The notes under the pieces: model-generated
What the model saw: the letters and a program-made list of their open reading frames with translations, nothing else
Told to the model about the DNA's origin: nothing
Database searches by the model: none
From: Mucilaginibacter sp.
GTDB lineage: Bacteria; Bacteroidota; Bacteroidia; Sphingobacteriales; Sphingobacteriaceae
Direction: 5' to 3'
Length of the DNA stretch: 54,614 bases
Assembly: GCA_028287975.1 (NCBI GenBank)
Contig: JAQBOP010000270.1
Span: 1 to 54,614, forward strand
In this document: one piece after another, positions 25,878 to 36,396 of the stretch
Position numbering within the stretch: position 1 is the first letter of the stretch
Layout of the letters: each line of letters starts with the position of its first letter
Made by a program: the position numbers and the translations under genes

Positions 25878-27236
25878 ATGCAATCTTTTGAAATAGATAA
25901 AACCGACCTGCTTCGCATTAAAACTGCGCTTGAAGGCGATGATGCTGAATTAGAGTTAGTTCTGAAAGAATATCATGCGTCTGAGATTGCCATATTGTTT
26001 GAAAGGCTTGAGCAGGAAGACAAGGAACGGATCATAAATATCCTGCCTACCGACGTAGCATCGGATGTATTTGCCGAAATGGACGAAGAGCATCGGCCGG
26101 GCGAGTTGTTGATTACCCTGGATCCTGAAAAACGGTCTGAAATAGTTGAAGAACTGGACTATGACGATGCGACCGACATTATCTCACAACTTGAAGAGCA
26201 CGAGCAGCAGGAGATTCTTGAAGATATTGACGAGGAAGATGCAAGTAGTATCCGCGCGCTTTTAAGTTACGATGAAAACACGGCAGGCGGTTTGATGAAC
26301 TCTGACCTGATCTGTGTAAATATAAATTCGGATAAGAAAGAAGCATTAGACGAGATCATCCGCCAGTCGGAAGAGATGGAGGAATTTTATACTATTTATG
26401 TGGTAGATGATGATAGTATTTTAAAAGGAGTAGTATCCATTAAAAACATTATAAAAGCACATGCCGACGTCAAGATCAAAGACATTTTCCAGGATGAGCC
26501 CGTATTTGTAAAGGCCGATCTTGACCAGGAAGAGGTAGCCAAACTGATCTCGCAATATAACTTAACGACGATACCCGTTGTAGACGATAATATGAAGTTG
26601 CTGGGTCGCATTACAGTTGATGATATTATTGACGTAATGGAGCAGGAGAGCACCGAGGATATGTTAAAGATCTCGGGTGTATCAGAGGACGAAGAACTGA
26701 GCGGTAACTGGAAAGAAGCGGTAAAAAGCCGTTTGCCATGGCTCATCATCAACTTAGCTACCGCTTACTTAGCTGCATCTATCATCAGGCATTTTGACTC
26801 GACCGTAGCGCAATTGCCACGCATTGCAGCTTATATGACCATTATTGCAGGTATGGGCGGCAACGCGGCCACGCAGGCATTAGCGGTAACAGTAAGGCGG
26901 ATCTCGTTAAGCGACCTGACAGACAGCCAGGCTTATAATACCGTTTTAAAAGAATTTTTGGTAGGCCTGTTAAACGGAGCAGCAAACGGGCTGGTGGTTT
27001 TTGGCATCGCGCTATTTTATGATGCAGACCCATTACTTGGGCTGGTTCTGTTTTTAGCTATGACCGGTAACCTGATTATCGCGGGGTTGACCGGCGCGAC
27101 TATTCCACTGATATTAAAGCGGGTAGGGATAGATCCTGCGGTCGCATCGTCGATCATAATAACAACGTTTACAGACTGCGCCGGCTTTTTATTGCCACTT
27201 TGGCTGGCAACCAATCTTTTATTACATCATCATTAA
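25878..27236 (+). CDS. mgtE: Magnesium transporter MgtE
   Basis: N-domain repeats, CBS domains, GMGGNAATQALAVTVR and DCAGFLLPLWLA motifs. Confidence 0.96.
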   Translation: MQSFEIDKTDLLRIKTALEGDDAELELVLKEYHASEIAILFERLEQEDKERIINILPTDVASDVFAEMDEEHRPGELLITLDPEKRSEIVEELDYDDATDIISQLEEHEQQEILEDIDEEDASSIRALLSYDENTAGGLMNSDLICVNINSDKKEALDEIIRQSEEMEEFYTIYVVDDDSILKGVVSIKNIIKAHADVKIKDIFQDEPVFVKADLDQEEVAKLISQYNLTTIPVVDDNMKLLGRITVDDIIDVMEQESTEDMLKISGVSEDEELSGNWKEAVKSRLPWLIINLATAYLAASIIRHFDSTVAQLPRIAAYMTIIAGMGGNAATQALAVTVRRISLSDLTDSQAYNTVLKEFLVGLLNGAANGLVVFGIALFYDADPLLGLVLFLAMTGNLIIAGLTGATIPLILKRVGIDPAVASSIIITTFTDCAGFLLPLWLATNLLLHHH

Positions 27237-27283
27237 TTGTACTAAGCTTTTATTATAAATTTGAACCTTCAAAACTGATCAAT

Positions 27284-28297
27284 ATGGCAGAAGTAAGATA
27301 CAACTGGACAAAAGAAGAAATTACCGATATATATAACACCCCGTTGCTTGACCTGGTTTATCAGGCGGCAAGCATTCATCGCGAAAATAAAGACTATGCC
27401 GAAGTGCAGATCAGCTCGCTGATCTCGATCAAAACCGGAGGATGCCCGGAGGATTGCGCTTATTGCCCGCAAGCCGCGCGTTACAATACCGGCGTTGATG
27501 TGCATGCCATTATGCCGAAGGAAGAAGTGATAGCTGTGGCCCAAAAAGCTAAAAACGGCGGCGCTTCACGGCTTTGTATGGGCGCCGCATGGCGCGAGGT
27601 CCGCGATAACCGCGATTTTGATAAAGTAATTGACATGGTAAAAGCTGTAAACGCCATGGATATGGAGGTTTGCTGTACTCTTGGTATGCTTACCGAAAGC
27701 CAGGCACAACGCTTAGCCGATGCCGGTTTATATGCTTACAACCACAACTTAGATACATCCGAAGACGACTATAAAAGAATTATTACTACCCGTACGTACG
27801 ACGATCGTTTGCAAACACTTGAGCATGTGCGTAAGGCAAAGATCTCTGTTTGCAGCGGTGGTATCATCGGTTTAGGTGAAACAACTGCCGACCGCATTTC
27901 GATGCTGAAAACCTTATCTAACTTACCGCAACATCCAGAGTCAGTTCCGATTAACGCTTTGGTGCCGGTTAAAGGTACTCCGCTGGCAGATCAGCCCCGT
28001 GTTTCTGTTTGGGATATGGTAAGGATGATAGCTACAACGCGTATCATCATGCCGAAAACTGTTGTGCGGTTATCAGCAGGCCGCACAGAAATGAGCGTTG
28101 TGGAGCAGGCATTTTGCTTTATGGCAGGTGCTAACTCCATCTTCGCCGGCGAGAAACTGTTAACCACACCAAACCCATCATTTGATGATGATATGGCCAT
28201 GTTTGAGCTGCTGGGCCTAACTCCACGCAAAGCCTTTAAAAATGGACGCCCTGAAATAAAGGAGATAAAAGAAATGAGTATTAATGAGGTGATTTAA
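27284..28297 (+). CDS. bioB: Biotin synthase
   Basis: GGCPEDCAYCPQA radical SAM cluster; start moved to MAEVRYNWTKEE. Confidence 0.97.
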   Translation: MAEVRYNWTKEEITDIYNTPLLDLVYQAASIHRENKDYAEVQISSLISIKTGGCPEDCAYCPQAARYNTGVDVHAIMPKEEVIAVAQKAKNGGASRLCMGAAWREVRDNRDFDKVIDMVKAVNAMDMEVCCTLGMLTESQAQRLADAGLYAYNHNLDTSEDDYKRIITTRTYDDRLQTLEHVRKAKISVCSGGIIGLGETTADRISMLKTLSNLPQHPESVPINALVPVKGTPLADQPRVSVWDMVRMIATTRIIMPKTVVRLSAGRTEMSVVEQAFCFMAGANSIFAGEKLLTTPNPSFDDDMAMFELLGLTPRKAFKNGRPEIKEIKEMSINEVI

Positions 28298-30766: not shown

Positions 30767-30773
30767 TATTTTG
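30767..30773 (+). promoter_or_regulatory. Promoter-like -7 box of ncRNA copy 1
   Basis: GTTAATAAAAACCAGCAAAAATATTTTG conserved with copy 2; TATTTTG resembles the Bacteroidota -7 element. Confidence 0.55.
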
Positions 30774-30779
30774 GAAATC

Positions 30780-31151
30780 GGCATGATGTCCCGATATTGA
30801 AATCATCAAGAACGACGTACTTTGACAGCCTTACAGGAATAACAAAAATTGAATCGGGCAAATCTTCGGAAGCGCTAAAGATCAAGGGAAAGCCTGAATT
30901 GCACAAAACAGAAACAGCGCAAGCAACAGAAACGCAGTGTTAATTAAACGGGCATTATCAGAAACTGTTAATTTTTACGGAGAGCGACAGCAGAACATAA
31001 TGACTTTGAAGTAACCGGAACCCGCGAGGAGGAAGGCAAGATCGAGTCGGTCATTTTACACAAAACTTGATGCTTTACGCCAGACTACGGTCAGGCATAG
31101 AGTTGAAAACGGGAGATCAAATCGAAAGACGCGGCTCCCGTTTTTGTTTTT
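30780..31151 (+). ncRNA. Structured ncRNA candidate, copy 1
   Basis: No credible long ORF; homologous to 32832-33207; CCCGAT/ATCGGG, AATGAC/GTCATT and TTACGCC/GGCATAG helices; ends in AACGGGAG...CTCCCGTTTTTGTTTTT. Confidence 0.8.
31108..31151 (+). terminator. Rho-independent terminator of ncRNA copy 1
   Basis: AACGGGAG (31108-31115) / CTCCCGTT (31135-31142) followed by U tract. Confidence 0.9.
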
Positions 31152-31315
31152 ACTACTCATGCCGAATTTATGCCGGCATCCCACACGCTTAGTAAATTCC
31201 GCTAAAAAGCGATACTAATATTTTCCTGTTTGATACTATCCCGGTTAGACACCAATGCATTTTTTTTATAATTTGCGCCGCATTTAATGCATAGTCTGTA
31301 TATCCAATTTTATTA

Positions 31316-32422
31316 ATGAATAATAATGAGCTGGCCACCAAGCCGCACTACCCCATATTAGACGGCCTTCGCGGTGTCGCGGCCATCATCGTTGTAACAT
31401 TTCACCTGTGCGAGCCATTGTCAACCAGTAATTTAGATAAACTTGTTAATCACGGTTACCTGGCTGTCGACTTTTTCTTTTTATTATCAGGTTTTGTGAT
31501 GGGCTATGCTTATGACGACCGCTGGCATAAAATGACAGTCGGCAGTTTTTTCAGACGCCGTATTGAACGTCTTCAACCAATGGTGGTTTTAGGGATGACC
31601 ATGGGCGCTATCGGGTTCTATTTTACGGATTCTACGCTATGGCCGCTCATTCATACTATCCCTGCCTGGAAGATGCTGCTGGTGCTGCTGATCGGTTATA
31701 CTATCCTGCCTGTGCCATTATCGCTTGATATACGTGGCTGGGAAGAGATGCACCCCCTGAATAGCGTGGGGTGGTCATTGTTCTTTGAGTACATTGCCAA
31801 TATTCTTTATGCTGTCTGGATCAGGAAATTTTCCAAAACGGCATTGTGTATCTTAGTCGGCATCGCTGCTATCGTGCTGGCACACCTGGCAATCACAAAC
31901 GGCGACGTTAGTGGTGGCTGGACACTGAATGTGCCACAGGTACGCATTGGGCTCACCCGTGTAATGTACCCTTTTTTTGCAGGCCTGTTACTGTCGCGTT
32001 TAGCAAAGCCGACCCAAATTAAAAACGCCTTTTTATGGTGCAGCCTTTTAATAGTTATTATACTTTATATGCCGCGGATTGGCGGTGCCGGGCATCTTTG
32101 GATGAACGGCATCTATGAATCTGTTTGTATCATCATCGTTTTCCCACTTATCGTCTACATCGGCGCAAGCGGCGTAATGAAAACGCAAAGAGAGAACAGG
32201 ATTTGCAAATTTTTAGGTGAGATATCCTATCCGCTTTACCTGGTACATTATCCGCTGGTTTATTTTTACGTCGCCTGGATCAGCAACCATAAAGGCGTAA
32301 CCATTGTGCAGGTGTGGCCTTACGCGTTACTTGTTTTCACAGGAGCCATTGTTTTGGCCTATGCCGCATTGAAATGGTATGATGAGCCGGTTAGGAAATG
32401 GTTGCGGAAAAAGCTCGGGTAG
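31316..32422 (+). CDS. Acyltransferase 3 family membrane protein
   Basis: YPILDGLRGVAAIIVVTFHL, YLAVDFFFLLSGFVMGYAY, ISYPLYLVHYPL. Confidence 0.93.
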   Translation: MNNNELATKPHYPILDGLRGVAAIIVVTFHLCEPLSTSNLDKLVNHGYLAVDFFFLLSGFVMGYAYDDRWHKMTVGSFFRRRIERLQPMVVLGMTMGAIGFYFTDSTLWPLIHTIPAWKMLLVLLIGYTILPVPLSLDIRGWEEMHPLNSVGWSLFFEYIANILYAVWIRKFSKTALCILVGIAAIVLAHLAITNGDVSGGWTLNVPQVRIGLTRVMYPFFAGLLLSRLAKPTQIKNAFLWCSLLIVIILYMPRIGGAGHLWMNGIYESVCIIIVFPLIVYIGASGVMKTQRENRICKFLGEISYPLYLVHYPLVYFYVAWISNHKGVTIVQVWPYALLVFTGAIVLAYAALKWYDEPVRKWLRKKLG

Positions 32423-32440
32423 GATCGGAATGAATTACTT

Positions 32441-32517
32441 GGGTGTCACCCTGAGGCACTCGAAGGGTGAGCGTAAGGCCTTTCCACGCATGCTTCGAGC
32501 GCCTCAGCATGACACCC
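32441..32517. repeat. Palindromic intergenic repeat
   Basis: GGGTGTCACCCTGAGGCACTCGAAG...CTTCGAGCGCCTCAGCATGACACCC with central AAGGCCTTT. Confidence 0.8.
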
Positions 32518-32818
32518 GTCACACTATCGATTTGGTTTGTAAATCAGCTAACAAACAGGCGCCAATTTTATAATAAATCCGTCCAAAACCATTTTCTACG
32601 CGTTTTCCACCCCGCAAAAATTCAAAAATAGCTTATCAACTGTGAATAAGCCGGTTGTGAATAACCCCAAAATCAGGATGAGTCATTAATCCATTGATTT
32701 ATAATGTCCTGTGTGAAATGGCATTTGTTTAAATAAAATCCCGACGATAAAGTCTAAATCAAAGTGTTTAAAACCATTCTTTTTCTGTTCAAAACAGGTT
32801 AATAAAAATCATTAAAAA

Positions 32819-32825
32819 TATTTTG
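32819..32825 (+). promoter_or_regulatory. Promoter-like -7 box of ncRNA copy 2
   Basis: GTTAATAAAAATCATTAAAAATATTTTG; same 17-base offset to the CCCGAT helix as copy 1. Confidence 0.55.
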
Positions 32826-32831
32826 CAAATC

Positions 32832-33207
32832 AGGCAGTTGTCCCGATATTGAAATCATCAAGAACGACGTACTTTGACAGCCTTACAGGAACAACAGAAA
32901 GTGAATCGGGCAAATCTTCGGAAGCGCTAAAGATCACGGGACTGCCTGAGTTACACCAAACAGAAACTGCGCAAGCGACGGAAACGCAGTGTTAACTAAA
33001 GATAGGGTATTACAGAAGCTGCTGATTTTTACGGAGAACAACAGCCTAACTAATGACTTTGACGCAACCACACCCCGCAAGGGACACGGCCAGGGCGAGT
33101 CGGTCATCTTACAGAAAGTTTGATGCTTTATGAAAAACTACGGTTGGTCATAAGGTAAGAAACGGGAGATCCAAATCGCAAGAAGAGGGCTCCCGTTTTT
33201 GTTTTTA
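32832..33207 (+). ncRNA. Structured ncRNA candidate, copy 2
   Basis: Homologous to 30780-31151; CCCGAT/ATCGGG, ACTGCG/CGCAGT, ATGAC/GTCAT, TTATGA/TCATAA helices; terminator AACGGGAG...CTCCCGTTTTTGTTTTT. Confidence 0.8.
33161..33207 (+). terminator. Rho-independent terminator of ncRNA copy 2
   Basis: AACGGGAG (33161-33168) / CTCCCGTT (33190-33197) plus U tract. Confidence 0.9.
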
Positions 33208-35046: not shown

Positions 35047-36396
35047 ATGCAAAAGGACGATAAAAGCAGGCCGAACGGGAGAAAGAAAATATTTGTTTTA
35101 GATACCTCAGTGATCTTGTATGATCATAACGCTTTTGAGAATTTCCAGGAGCACGATGTGGCCATACCTATACAAGTGCTCGAAGAGCTGGATAACATGA
35201 AAAGCGGTAACGATACCCGCAATTTTGAGGCACGCAGCTTTATCCGGCTGATCGATGATATTTCGCGCAAAAAGCTGGTGAACAAATGGCATCCGCTAAA
35301 TGGTAAGGACAAAGGCAGCTTTAAAGTTGTGATCGATACAAAAACCACGGGTGTTGACGCCGAAGCTATTTTTGGGTCGGACAAGGTGGATCACCGCATC
35401 CTGAACGCCGCTTTGGGTCTACAGGAAGAAAATCCGGATAAGAAGATAGTGCTGGTATCAAAAGATATCTGCCTGCGTTTAAAAGCAAAAGCATTGAGCT
35501 TACATGCCGAGGATTATGAAACCGGCAAGGTTAAAAACCTGGATGAGCTGTACAGCGGTAAAACCGTTTTAACCGTAACTGATAAACAAATTACCCAGCT
35601 AAATAAACAGGACACCTTACCTGCCGATGGGCTGGCGCTAAATGCAGACACAGCCAATCACTTTTATATTCTTGAAAGTAAAAAAAACACGGCATCAGGC
35701 TTTTACAACAGCCAGACCGGGCAGCTTGAAAGAATAACCGAGCAGCCTATATTTAATATCTATCCCAAAAATTTAGAACAGGCTTTTGCTATACACGCAT
35801 TGCTAAACCCGGATATTAAACTGGTGACCATACAGGGCAACGCCGGGACAGGTAAAACCTTACTGGCATTGGCTGGCGCGTTGGAACAGCGCAAATATTA
35901 CCGCCAGATCTACGTTACCCGCCCGATAGTGCCGCTGAGCAATAAAGATATTGGCTTTTTACCCGGTGATGTAAAATCAAAGATCGACCCGTACATGGCA
36001 CCGATATGGGACAACCTGAAATTTATTAAAGATCAGTTTGTCGATGACGAAAAAATGCAGGCCAAATTGGACGAACTGGTTACTAACGATAAGATCTCTA
36101 TCGCGCCGTTAGCTTTTATCCGTGGCCGTACGTTAAGCAAAATCTTTTTTATTGTGGACGAAGCACAGAATCTTACCCCGCATGAGATCAAAACTATCAT
36201 ATCCCGCGCAGGCGAAAACAGCAAGTTTGTTTTTACCGGCGATATTTACCAGATAGATACACCATATCTTGATGCCGAAAGTAACGGATTATCTTACCTG
36301 ATTGACAGGGCAAAGGGCCACCCGCTTTACGCGCACATTACCCTGCAAAAAGGTGAGCGGAGCGAGCTGGCTAACTTGGCTACAGAGTTGTTATAA
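35047..36396 (+). CDS. PIN-PhoH fusion ATPase
   Basis: N-terminal PIN (FVLDTSVILYDHNAF), GNAGTGKTLLALA, FIRGRTLSKIFFIVDEAQNLTPHEIKTIISRAGENSKFVFTGD. Confidence 0.95.
   Translation: MQKDDKSRPNGRKKIFVLDTSVILYDHNAFENFQEHDVAIPIQVLEELDNMKSGNDTRNFEARSFIRLIDDISRKKLVNKWHPLNGKDKGSFKVVIDTKTTGVDAEAIFGSDKVDHRILNAALGLQEENPDKKIVLVSKDICLRLKAKALSLHAEDYETGKVKNLDELYSGKTVLTVTDKQITQLNKQDTLPADGLALNADTANHFYILESKKNTASGFYNSQTGQLERITEQPIFNIYPKNLEQAFAIHALLNPDIKLVTIQGNAGTGKTLLALAGALEQRKYYRQIYVTRPIVPLSNKDIGFLPGDVKSKIDPYMAPIWDNLKFIKDQFVDDEKMQAKLDELVTNDKISIAPLAFIRGRTLSKIFFIVDEAQNLTPHEIKTIISRAGENSKFVFTGDIYQIDTPYLDAESNGLSYLIDRAKGHPLYAHITLQKGERSELANLATELL

Follow-up and report, generated by a model that had tools for sequence, protein, structure and literature searches.

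The raiA motif RNA, or ModT, is a structured noncoding RNA encoded on the chromosomes of many species of Bacillota and Actinobacteriota, and it acts in trans (PMC11706538). The RNA described here is likewise structured, chromosomal and present in many species, but it comes from other phyla, differs in sequence and size, and gave no match in the Rfam scan. OLE, ROOL and GOLLD (PMC12286853) are large, highly branched noncoding RNAs with many stable tetraloops, features that our RNA shares; it differs from them in its smaller core, the lack of an Rfam match, and its absence from the phage and viral collections searched. The 6S and 6S-Flavo RNAs (RF00013 and RF01685) are also autonomous, but they are rods with a bubble, whereas the RNA here is branched. 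RNase P, tmRNA and SRP RNAs are chromosomal, structured and of a broadly similar size class, yet their models find no match. Pedo-repair, Flavo-1, Bacteroidales-1 and other motifs (Weinberg 2010, PMC2864571) have the same Bacteroidota range; the comparison covered those listed there with an Rfam accession, which were unmatched here, whereas Bacteroides-2 and GUCCY-hairpin have no accession.

We analyzed a 54,614-nucleotide stretch of a Mucilaginibacter sp. genome (GCA_028287975.1, contig JAQBOP010000270.1), hereafter the window. Judged by its genes, the host would belong to the Sphingobacteriaceae, near Mucilaginibacter. The window contains two homologous RNA copies, probably tandem paralogues that belong to a single undescribed structured RNA class in Bacteroidia. 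We consider it likely, from the comparisons given below, that this is a new class among the large autonomous structured bacterial RNAs (with OLE, ROOL, GOLLD and raiA/ModT), outside the known families. A first-pass annotation, made from the letters alone, had proposed an uncharacterised structured RNA class at this locus. The lack of an Rfam match, homologues far from the locus and covariation above controls support that proposal.

Two homologous RNAs in the window

The copies align with 83% identity over 391 nt (E = 1.2e-107, copy against copy), and every shared block listed by the first-pass annotation was located and aligned in both. The interval it assigned to the pair, 30780-33207, does contain two homologous RNA copies, but an acyltransferase gene is also inside.

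30803..31151, + strand: RNA copy 1, about 349 nt, predicted 5′ end
31316..32422, + strand: acyltransferase gene (Pfam PF01757) between the copies, outside the RNA
32855..33207, + strand: RNA copy 2, about 353 nt, predicted 5′ end

The longest open reading frame in the window copies has 48 codons, and those with an ATG start have 26 and 4. Across 162 relatives the mean longest frame is 39.6 codons, compared with 39.0 in shuffled sequence. The earlier view that neither copy carries a credible frame thus agrees with lengths at the level of shuffled sequence, and by this measure the RNA family is noncoding, with no conserved open reading frame.

Cmscan with all 4227 families of Rfam 15 at gathering scores gave no match in the window and none in 15 distant loci. 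In permissive mode, all hits in the window fell well below gathering scores, and a further permissive scan returned none. No Rfam family is therefore matched in credible form, even permissively, and the earlier statement that the pair is not RNase P, tmRNA, SRP or 6S RNA holds in that none of those models matches either copy. One Rfam hit alone had a low E value, to MIR6201 (32437-32521, both strands), and was rejected; it falls on a palindromic repeat outside the RNA. This 85-nt repeat sits right behind the acyltransferase gene, scores weakly with MIR6201 on both strands, and looks like a dispersed intergenic repeat that is separate from the RNA.

A description of the family was not found in the main texts of the open literature. 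Two surveys, covering 26 and 50 bacterial genomes, contain no Bacteroidota term in the main text, and phoH (see below) is unmentioned in the 2010 survey (Weinberg) and in a human-microbiome survey. It is unlikely that the family has already been described outside the open literature.

Promoters and terminators

Upstream of the RNA in about 90 relatives there is a TTGAC(A) -35 element followed, after about 17 nt, by a TAnnTTAG or TAnnTTTG -10 element. In Flavobacteriia the sigmaA -7 box is TAnnTTTG (PMC9723704). Based on the layout in the relatives, we assign TATTTTG in the window (30767-30773 for copy 1 and 32819-32825 for copy 2) as the -35 element and GATATTGA as the -10 element.

30767..30776, + strand: putative -35 element of copy 1 (TATTTTGGAA), containing the TATTTTG box of the first-pass annotation and aligned to the TTGACA of relatives
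30793..30800, + strand: putative -10 element of copy 1 (GATATTGA; TAnnTTAG/TTTG in relatives), from comparison with relatives
32819..32828, + strand: putative -35 element of copy 2 (TATTTTGCAA), from comparison with relatives
32845..32852, + strand: putative -10 element of copy 2 (GATATTGA), from comparison with relatives
31106..31151, + strand: predicted terminator hairpin of copy 1 with conserved UCGAAAGA inner loop, then T-run, from covariation and loop conservation
33160..33207, + strand: predicted terminator hairpin of copy 2 with UCGCAAGA inner loop, then T-run, from covariation and loop conservation

With TATTTTG as the -35 element, the RNA would start about 30 nt further on, so that the 5′ ends are predicted near 30803 and 32855. 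The start had earlier been put 17 nt after TATTTTG; we revise this, as the relatives place the -35 element there, and GATATTGA falls within what had been listed as the first conserved block of the RNA. The common terminator described earlier was confirmed, each copy ending in a AACGGGAG...CTCCCGTTTTT hairpin and a T-run. About 90 copies have their own promoter and terminator signals, as recognized from sequence.

Across families, about two thirds of the 162 copies keep the terminator loop (UCGAAAGA at 31120-31129 and UCGCAAGA at 33175-33184 in the window). Such conservation seems unusual for a plain terminator, and the loop may dock or bind something.

Secondary structure and covariation

We took the architecture from single-sequence folds of relatives. 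A helix, P1 (AUCAAG/CUUGAU), closes the molecule, and its pairing is kept across 200-640 nt. The relatives also fold a P2 (GUAC.UUUGAC with GGUUAAAAUAC and variants), one subgroup has a P3 (AGCCUG/CAGGC), and the central domain is branched, with hairpins capped by UACG and GNRA loops. Outside P1 there is a cUACGg-capped hairpin, then the terminator with its inner UC-GNRA-GA loop. The minimum-energy folds of both window copies contain P1, the 3′ hairpin and the terminator.

30804..30810, + strand: closing helix P1 of copy 1, 5′ strand CATCAAG, pairs with 31066-31072
31066..31072, + strand: closing helix P1 of copy 1, 3′ strand CTTGATG, pairs with 30804-30810
32856..32862, + strand: closing helix P1 of copy 2, 5′ strand CATCAAG, pairs with 33119-33125
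33119..33125, + strand: closing helix P1 of copy 2, 3′ strand TTTGATG, pairs with 32856-32862
31073..31104, + strand: 3′ hairpin of copy 1 with cUACGg loop, from covariation
33126..33158, + strand: 3′ hairpin of copy 2 with cUACGg loop, from covariation and fold

Folding energies of the single window copies are ordinary (z of -0.75 and -1.01), and it is therefore covariation that supports a structure. For the 3′ part, 40 sequences gave a covariation score of 0.391, compared with 0.238 for shuffled and at most 0.197 for slid controls. With 91 sequences from across families, in an alignment fitted to the model, the score was 0.666 (0.235 shuffled and at most 0.161 slid).

Copies from the host's family diverge too much in a full MAFFT alignment for covariation to be tested over all pairs, and the whole RNA was therefore analyzed by subgroup with a pair-restricted test; structures were predicted with no covariation bonus, and the null came from simulation on the tree. 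Pairs above the tree-based null numbered 11 of 82 in group M (28 sequences), 7 of 70 in group Q and 4 of 86 in group C, each with 0-1 in the slid control, and 2 of 44 in group D and 2 of 58 in group E, each with 0 when slid. Compensatory changes occur in 52 of 82 pairs in M, 47 of 70 in Q, 57 of 86 in C, 28 of 44 in D and 30 of 58 in E. The all-pairs test gave weak results, with 0-1 significant pair in each group, and significance comes from the tests confined to predicted pairs. Columns also change less often in the simulated null than in the real data, so we give most weight to the slid controls.

One P1 position is G-C in 51 sequences, A-U in 19 and U-A in 5, the pairing being kept despite the change of letters, and in distant loci P1 reads GCAGUU/AACUGC and CACCAAAC/GUUUGGUG, still paired. 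The best-conserved stretches are the junction beside P1 and the structured 3′ end. A conserved secondary structure is thus supported by compensatory changes in the aligned sequences, and the covariation called for in the first-pass annotation exceeds shuffled, slid and tree-based controls.

Distribution in Bacteroidia

By blastn the RNA was found in 35 of 151 genomes of the host's family. R1, a covariance model that covers the 3′ 90 nt and was built from this family only, detects it in 160 of 301 family genomes, including 63 of 69 in the host's genus, a recurrence that is more than chance. In a scan of the class, R1 found copies in other families that have the same architecture and a different 5′ signature, TAnnTTTG-nn-ATCAnCAAGTGAGRGATAAAAGG.

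We scanned 84,980 species, each represented by one genome, for exact occurrences of CAAGTGAGRGATAAAAGG and obtained 73 matches on 69 stretches, nearly all in Bacteroidota according to record titles. These include Cyclobacteriaceae (Algoriphagus, Aquiflexum, Cognataquiflexum, Mariniradius and Lunatibacter) and records of Bacteroidales, Flavobacteriales, Flammeovirgaceae and Lentimicrobiaceae. For 65 of the 73, R1 places the 3′ end on the same strand at a distance of 136-530 nt downstream, although the whole search was expected to give about one hit with E<=1. The pattern was chosen from a handful of R1 hits, which do not count as independent.

With R2, a broader model, confident hits extend to about nine families within the class, and 198 genomes of the phylum gave no hit above 43 bits outside the class. 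Weak hits of about 33-36 bits in the class and phylum scans, among them two extra ones in the host genome (C75 and C105), are near the noise level of terminator-like hairpins and were not counted. The homologues outside the locus that the first-pass annotation had called for thus extend far beyond it, into several families of Bacteroidia. In plasmid, phage and viral contig collections there was no match at the sensitivity used.

A recurrent PhoH2-type neighbor

A gene for a PIN-PhoH ATPase recurs next to the RNA in relatives.

35047..36396, + strand: PIN_4 and PhoH gene (PhoH2 type), the recurrent neighbor of the RNA in relatives, from Pfam and synteny

This gene starts 46-118 nt downstream of the RNA in 20 of 35 mapped loci of the host's family. 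In the window two genes separate it from copy 2, in another family it is head-to-head with the RNA, and in one host-family locus (L064) the RNA is divergent from it. In most families outside the host's, phoH is not adjacent to the RNA. Genes for MgtE and BioB, located upstream of the RNA in the window (25878-28297), are likewise found repeatedly next to the RNA and phoH in related genera.

Adjacency in differing orientations speaks against a simple leader and hints at a functional link between the RNA and phoH. Shared ancestry with local inversion would also explain it. On this genomic context we propose the PIN-PhoH ATPase as a tentative protein partner. It is doubtful, yet conceivable, that the RNA forms a particle with this predicted helicase-ribonuclease, in which it would serve as guide, regulator or substrate.

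Possible modes of action

We infer that the RNA is transcribed and acts in trans as a folded molecule, and other readings of the same features were weighed against this. One is that it controls the downstream phoH in cis, as a leader working through the terminator. The short spacing in 20 of the 35 host-family loci, where the RNA is directly upstream and in line with the gene, would fit. The window, the divergent loci and most other families lack this arrangement, and RNA and terminator are kept where phoH is divergent, two genes away (as in the window) or not nearby; tandem copies with a terminator in each also argue against a leader, which we regard as very unlikely. Regulation of mRNAs mainly by base pairing, with the body of the RNA providing stability, is unlikely: an autonomous promoter and terminator, a variable central domain and paralogues within one genome are all compatible with it, but conservation is strongest at the junction beside P1 and at the structured 3′ end.

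Bacillus has two 6S paralogues, 6S-1 and 6S-2, and the present RNA is also autonomous and occurs as two paralogues. It could be the functional counterpart of 6S in these lineages, binding the RNA polymerase holoenzyme. Neither 6S (RF00013) nor 6S-Flavo (RF01685) was matched in 21 relatives, where the 6S seat is perhaps vacant, but the 6S-Flavo control was silent everywhere, so that it does not establish the absence of 6S from the relatives. The 6S models also have no match to the RNA, including in the permissive mode of Rfam, and 6S consists of a single long hairpin interrupted by a central bubble, whereas the consensus folds here are branched, with the closing helix P1 and extra 3′ hairpins. 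The candidate identification as 6S itself was rejected, both models being without a match in relatives and no rod with a bubble being seen; a 6S-like function is quite unlikely. Tandem copies and a patchy range among families might suggest the RNA of a mobile or defense element, such as a retron, an omega RNA or an IS-associated RNA. This is highly improbable: the ten neighboring proteins in the window have no reverse transcriptase, transposase or Cas domain by Pfam, synteny is stable, and the RNA was found on no plasmid, phage or viral contig at the sensitivity used. A linked reverse transcriptase or TnpB/IscB gene was absent from the ten window neighbors (Pfam), and no shared neighbor of that kind was recognized at the other loci, viewed without a Pfam scan.

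In the trans-acting model that we prefer, each copy would be transcribed from its own housekeeping-type promoter and stop at its own intrinsic terminator. The chain would fold back so that both ends meet in P1, which would enclose an inner junction and then a branched central domain of a size that is highly variable between lineages. Outside P1, the predicted molecule has the UACG-loop hairpin and the terminator hairpin with its conserved GNRA-like loop. The RNA would most likely act as an RNA-protein particle, for which the neighboring PIN-PhoH ATPase, a predicted helicase plus ribonuclease, is the most specific candidate partner, though on balance an unlikely one.

Large structured bacterial RNAs that are long conserved have repeatedly been found to run unexpected machinery. 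The class proposed here has hundreds of detectable copies, is missing from Rfam, and includes members in the culturable genera Algoriphagus and Aquiflexum. Its PhoH2 neighborhood provides a concrete first hypothesis for a family of RNA-processing enzymes with largely unknown targets. PIN-PhoH proteins are widespread and poorly understood, and we know of no dedicated RNA partner for them; a PhoH2 particle, if real, would contain the first.

Larger copies and tandem types

Copies at eleven loci (L036, L038, L040, L044, L045, L046, L222, L223, L234, L245 and L247) are about 610-630 nt long and have an extra 240-280 nt between the 5′ and 3′ parts. In one family, three loci (L106, L109 and L110, at about 1025-1500 in each) have a central domain with at least three copies of one structural module that ends with GAGACGGGCAACCGCAGAA; it looks as though internal duplication had enlarged the RNA. 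Several species of one genus (L048, L050, L052, L055 and L057) have two tandem copies that differ at the 5′ end, ATAAGAACGAAGTA versus TTAAGTCGGAAGTA; these two types are apparently an old duplication of which both copies were retained.
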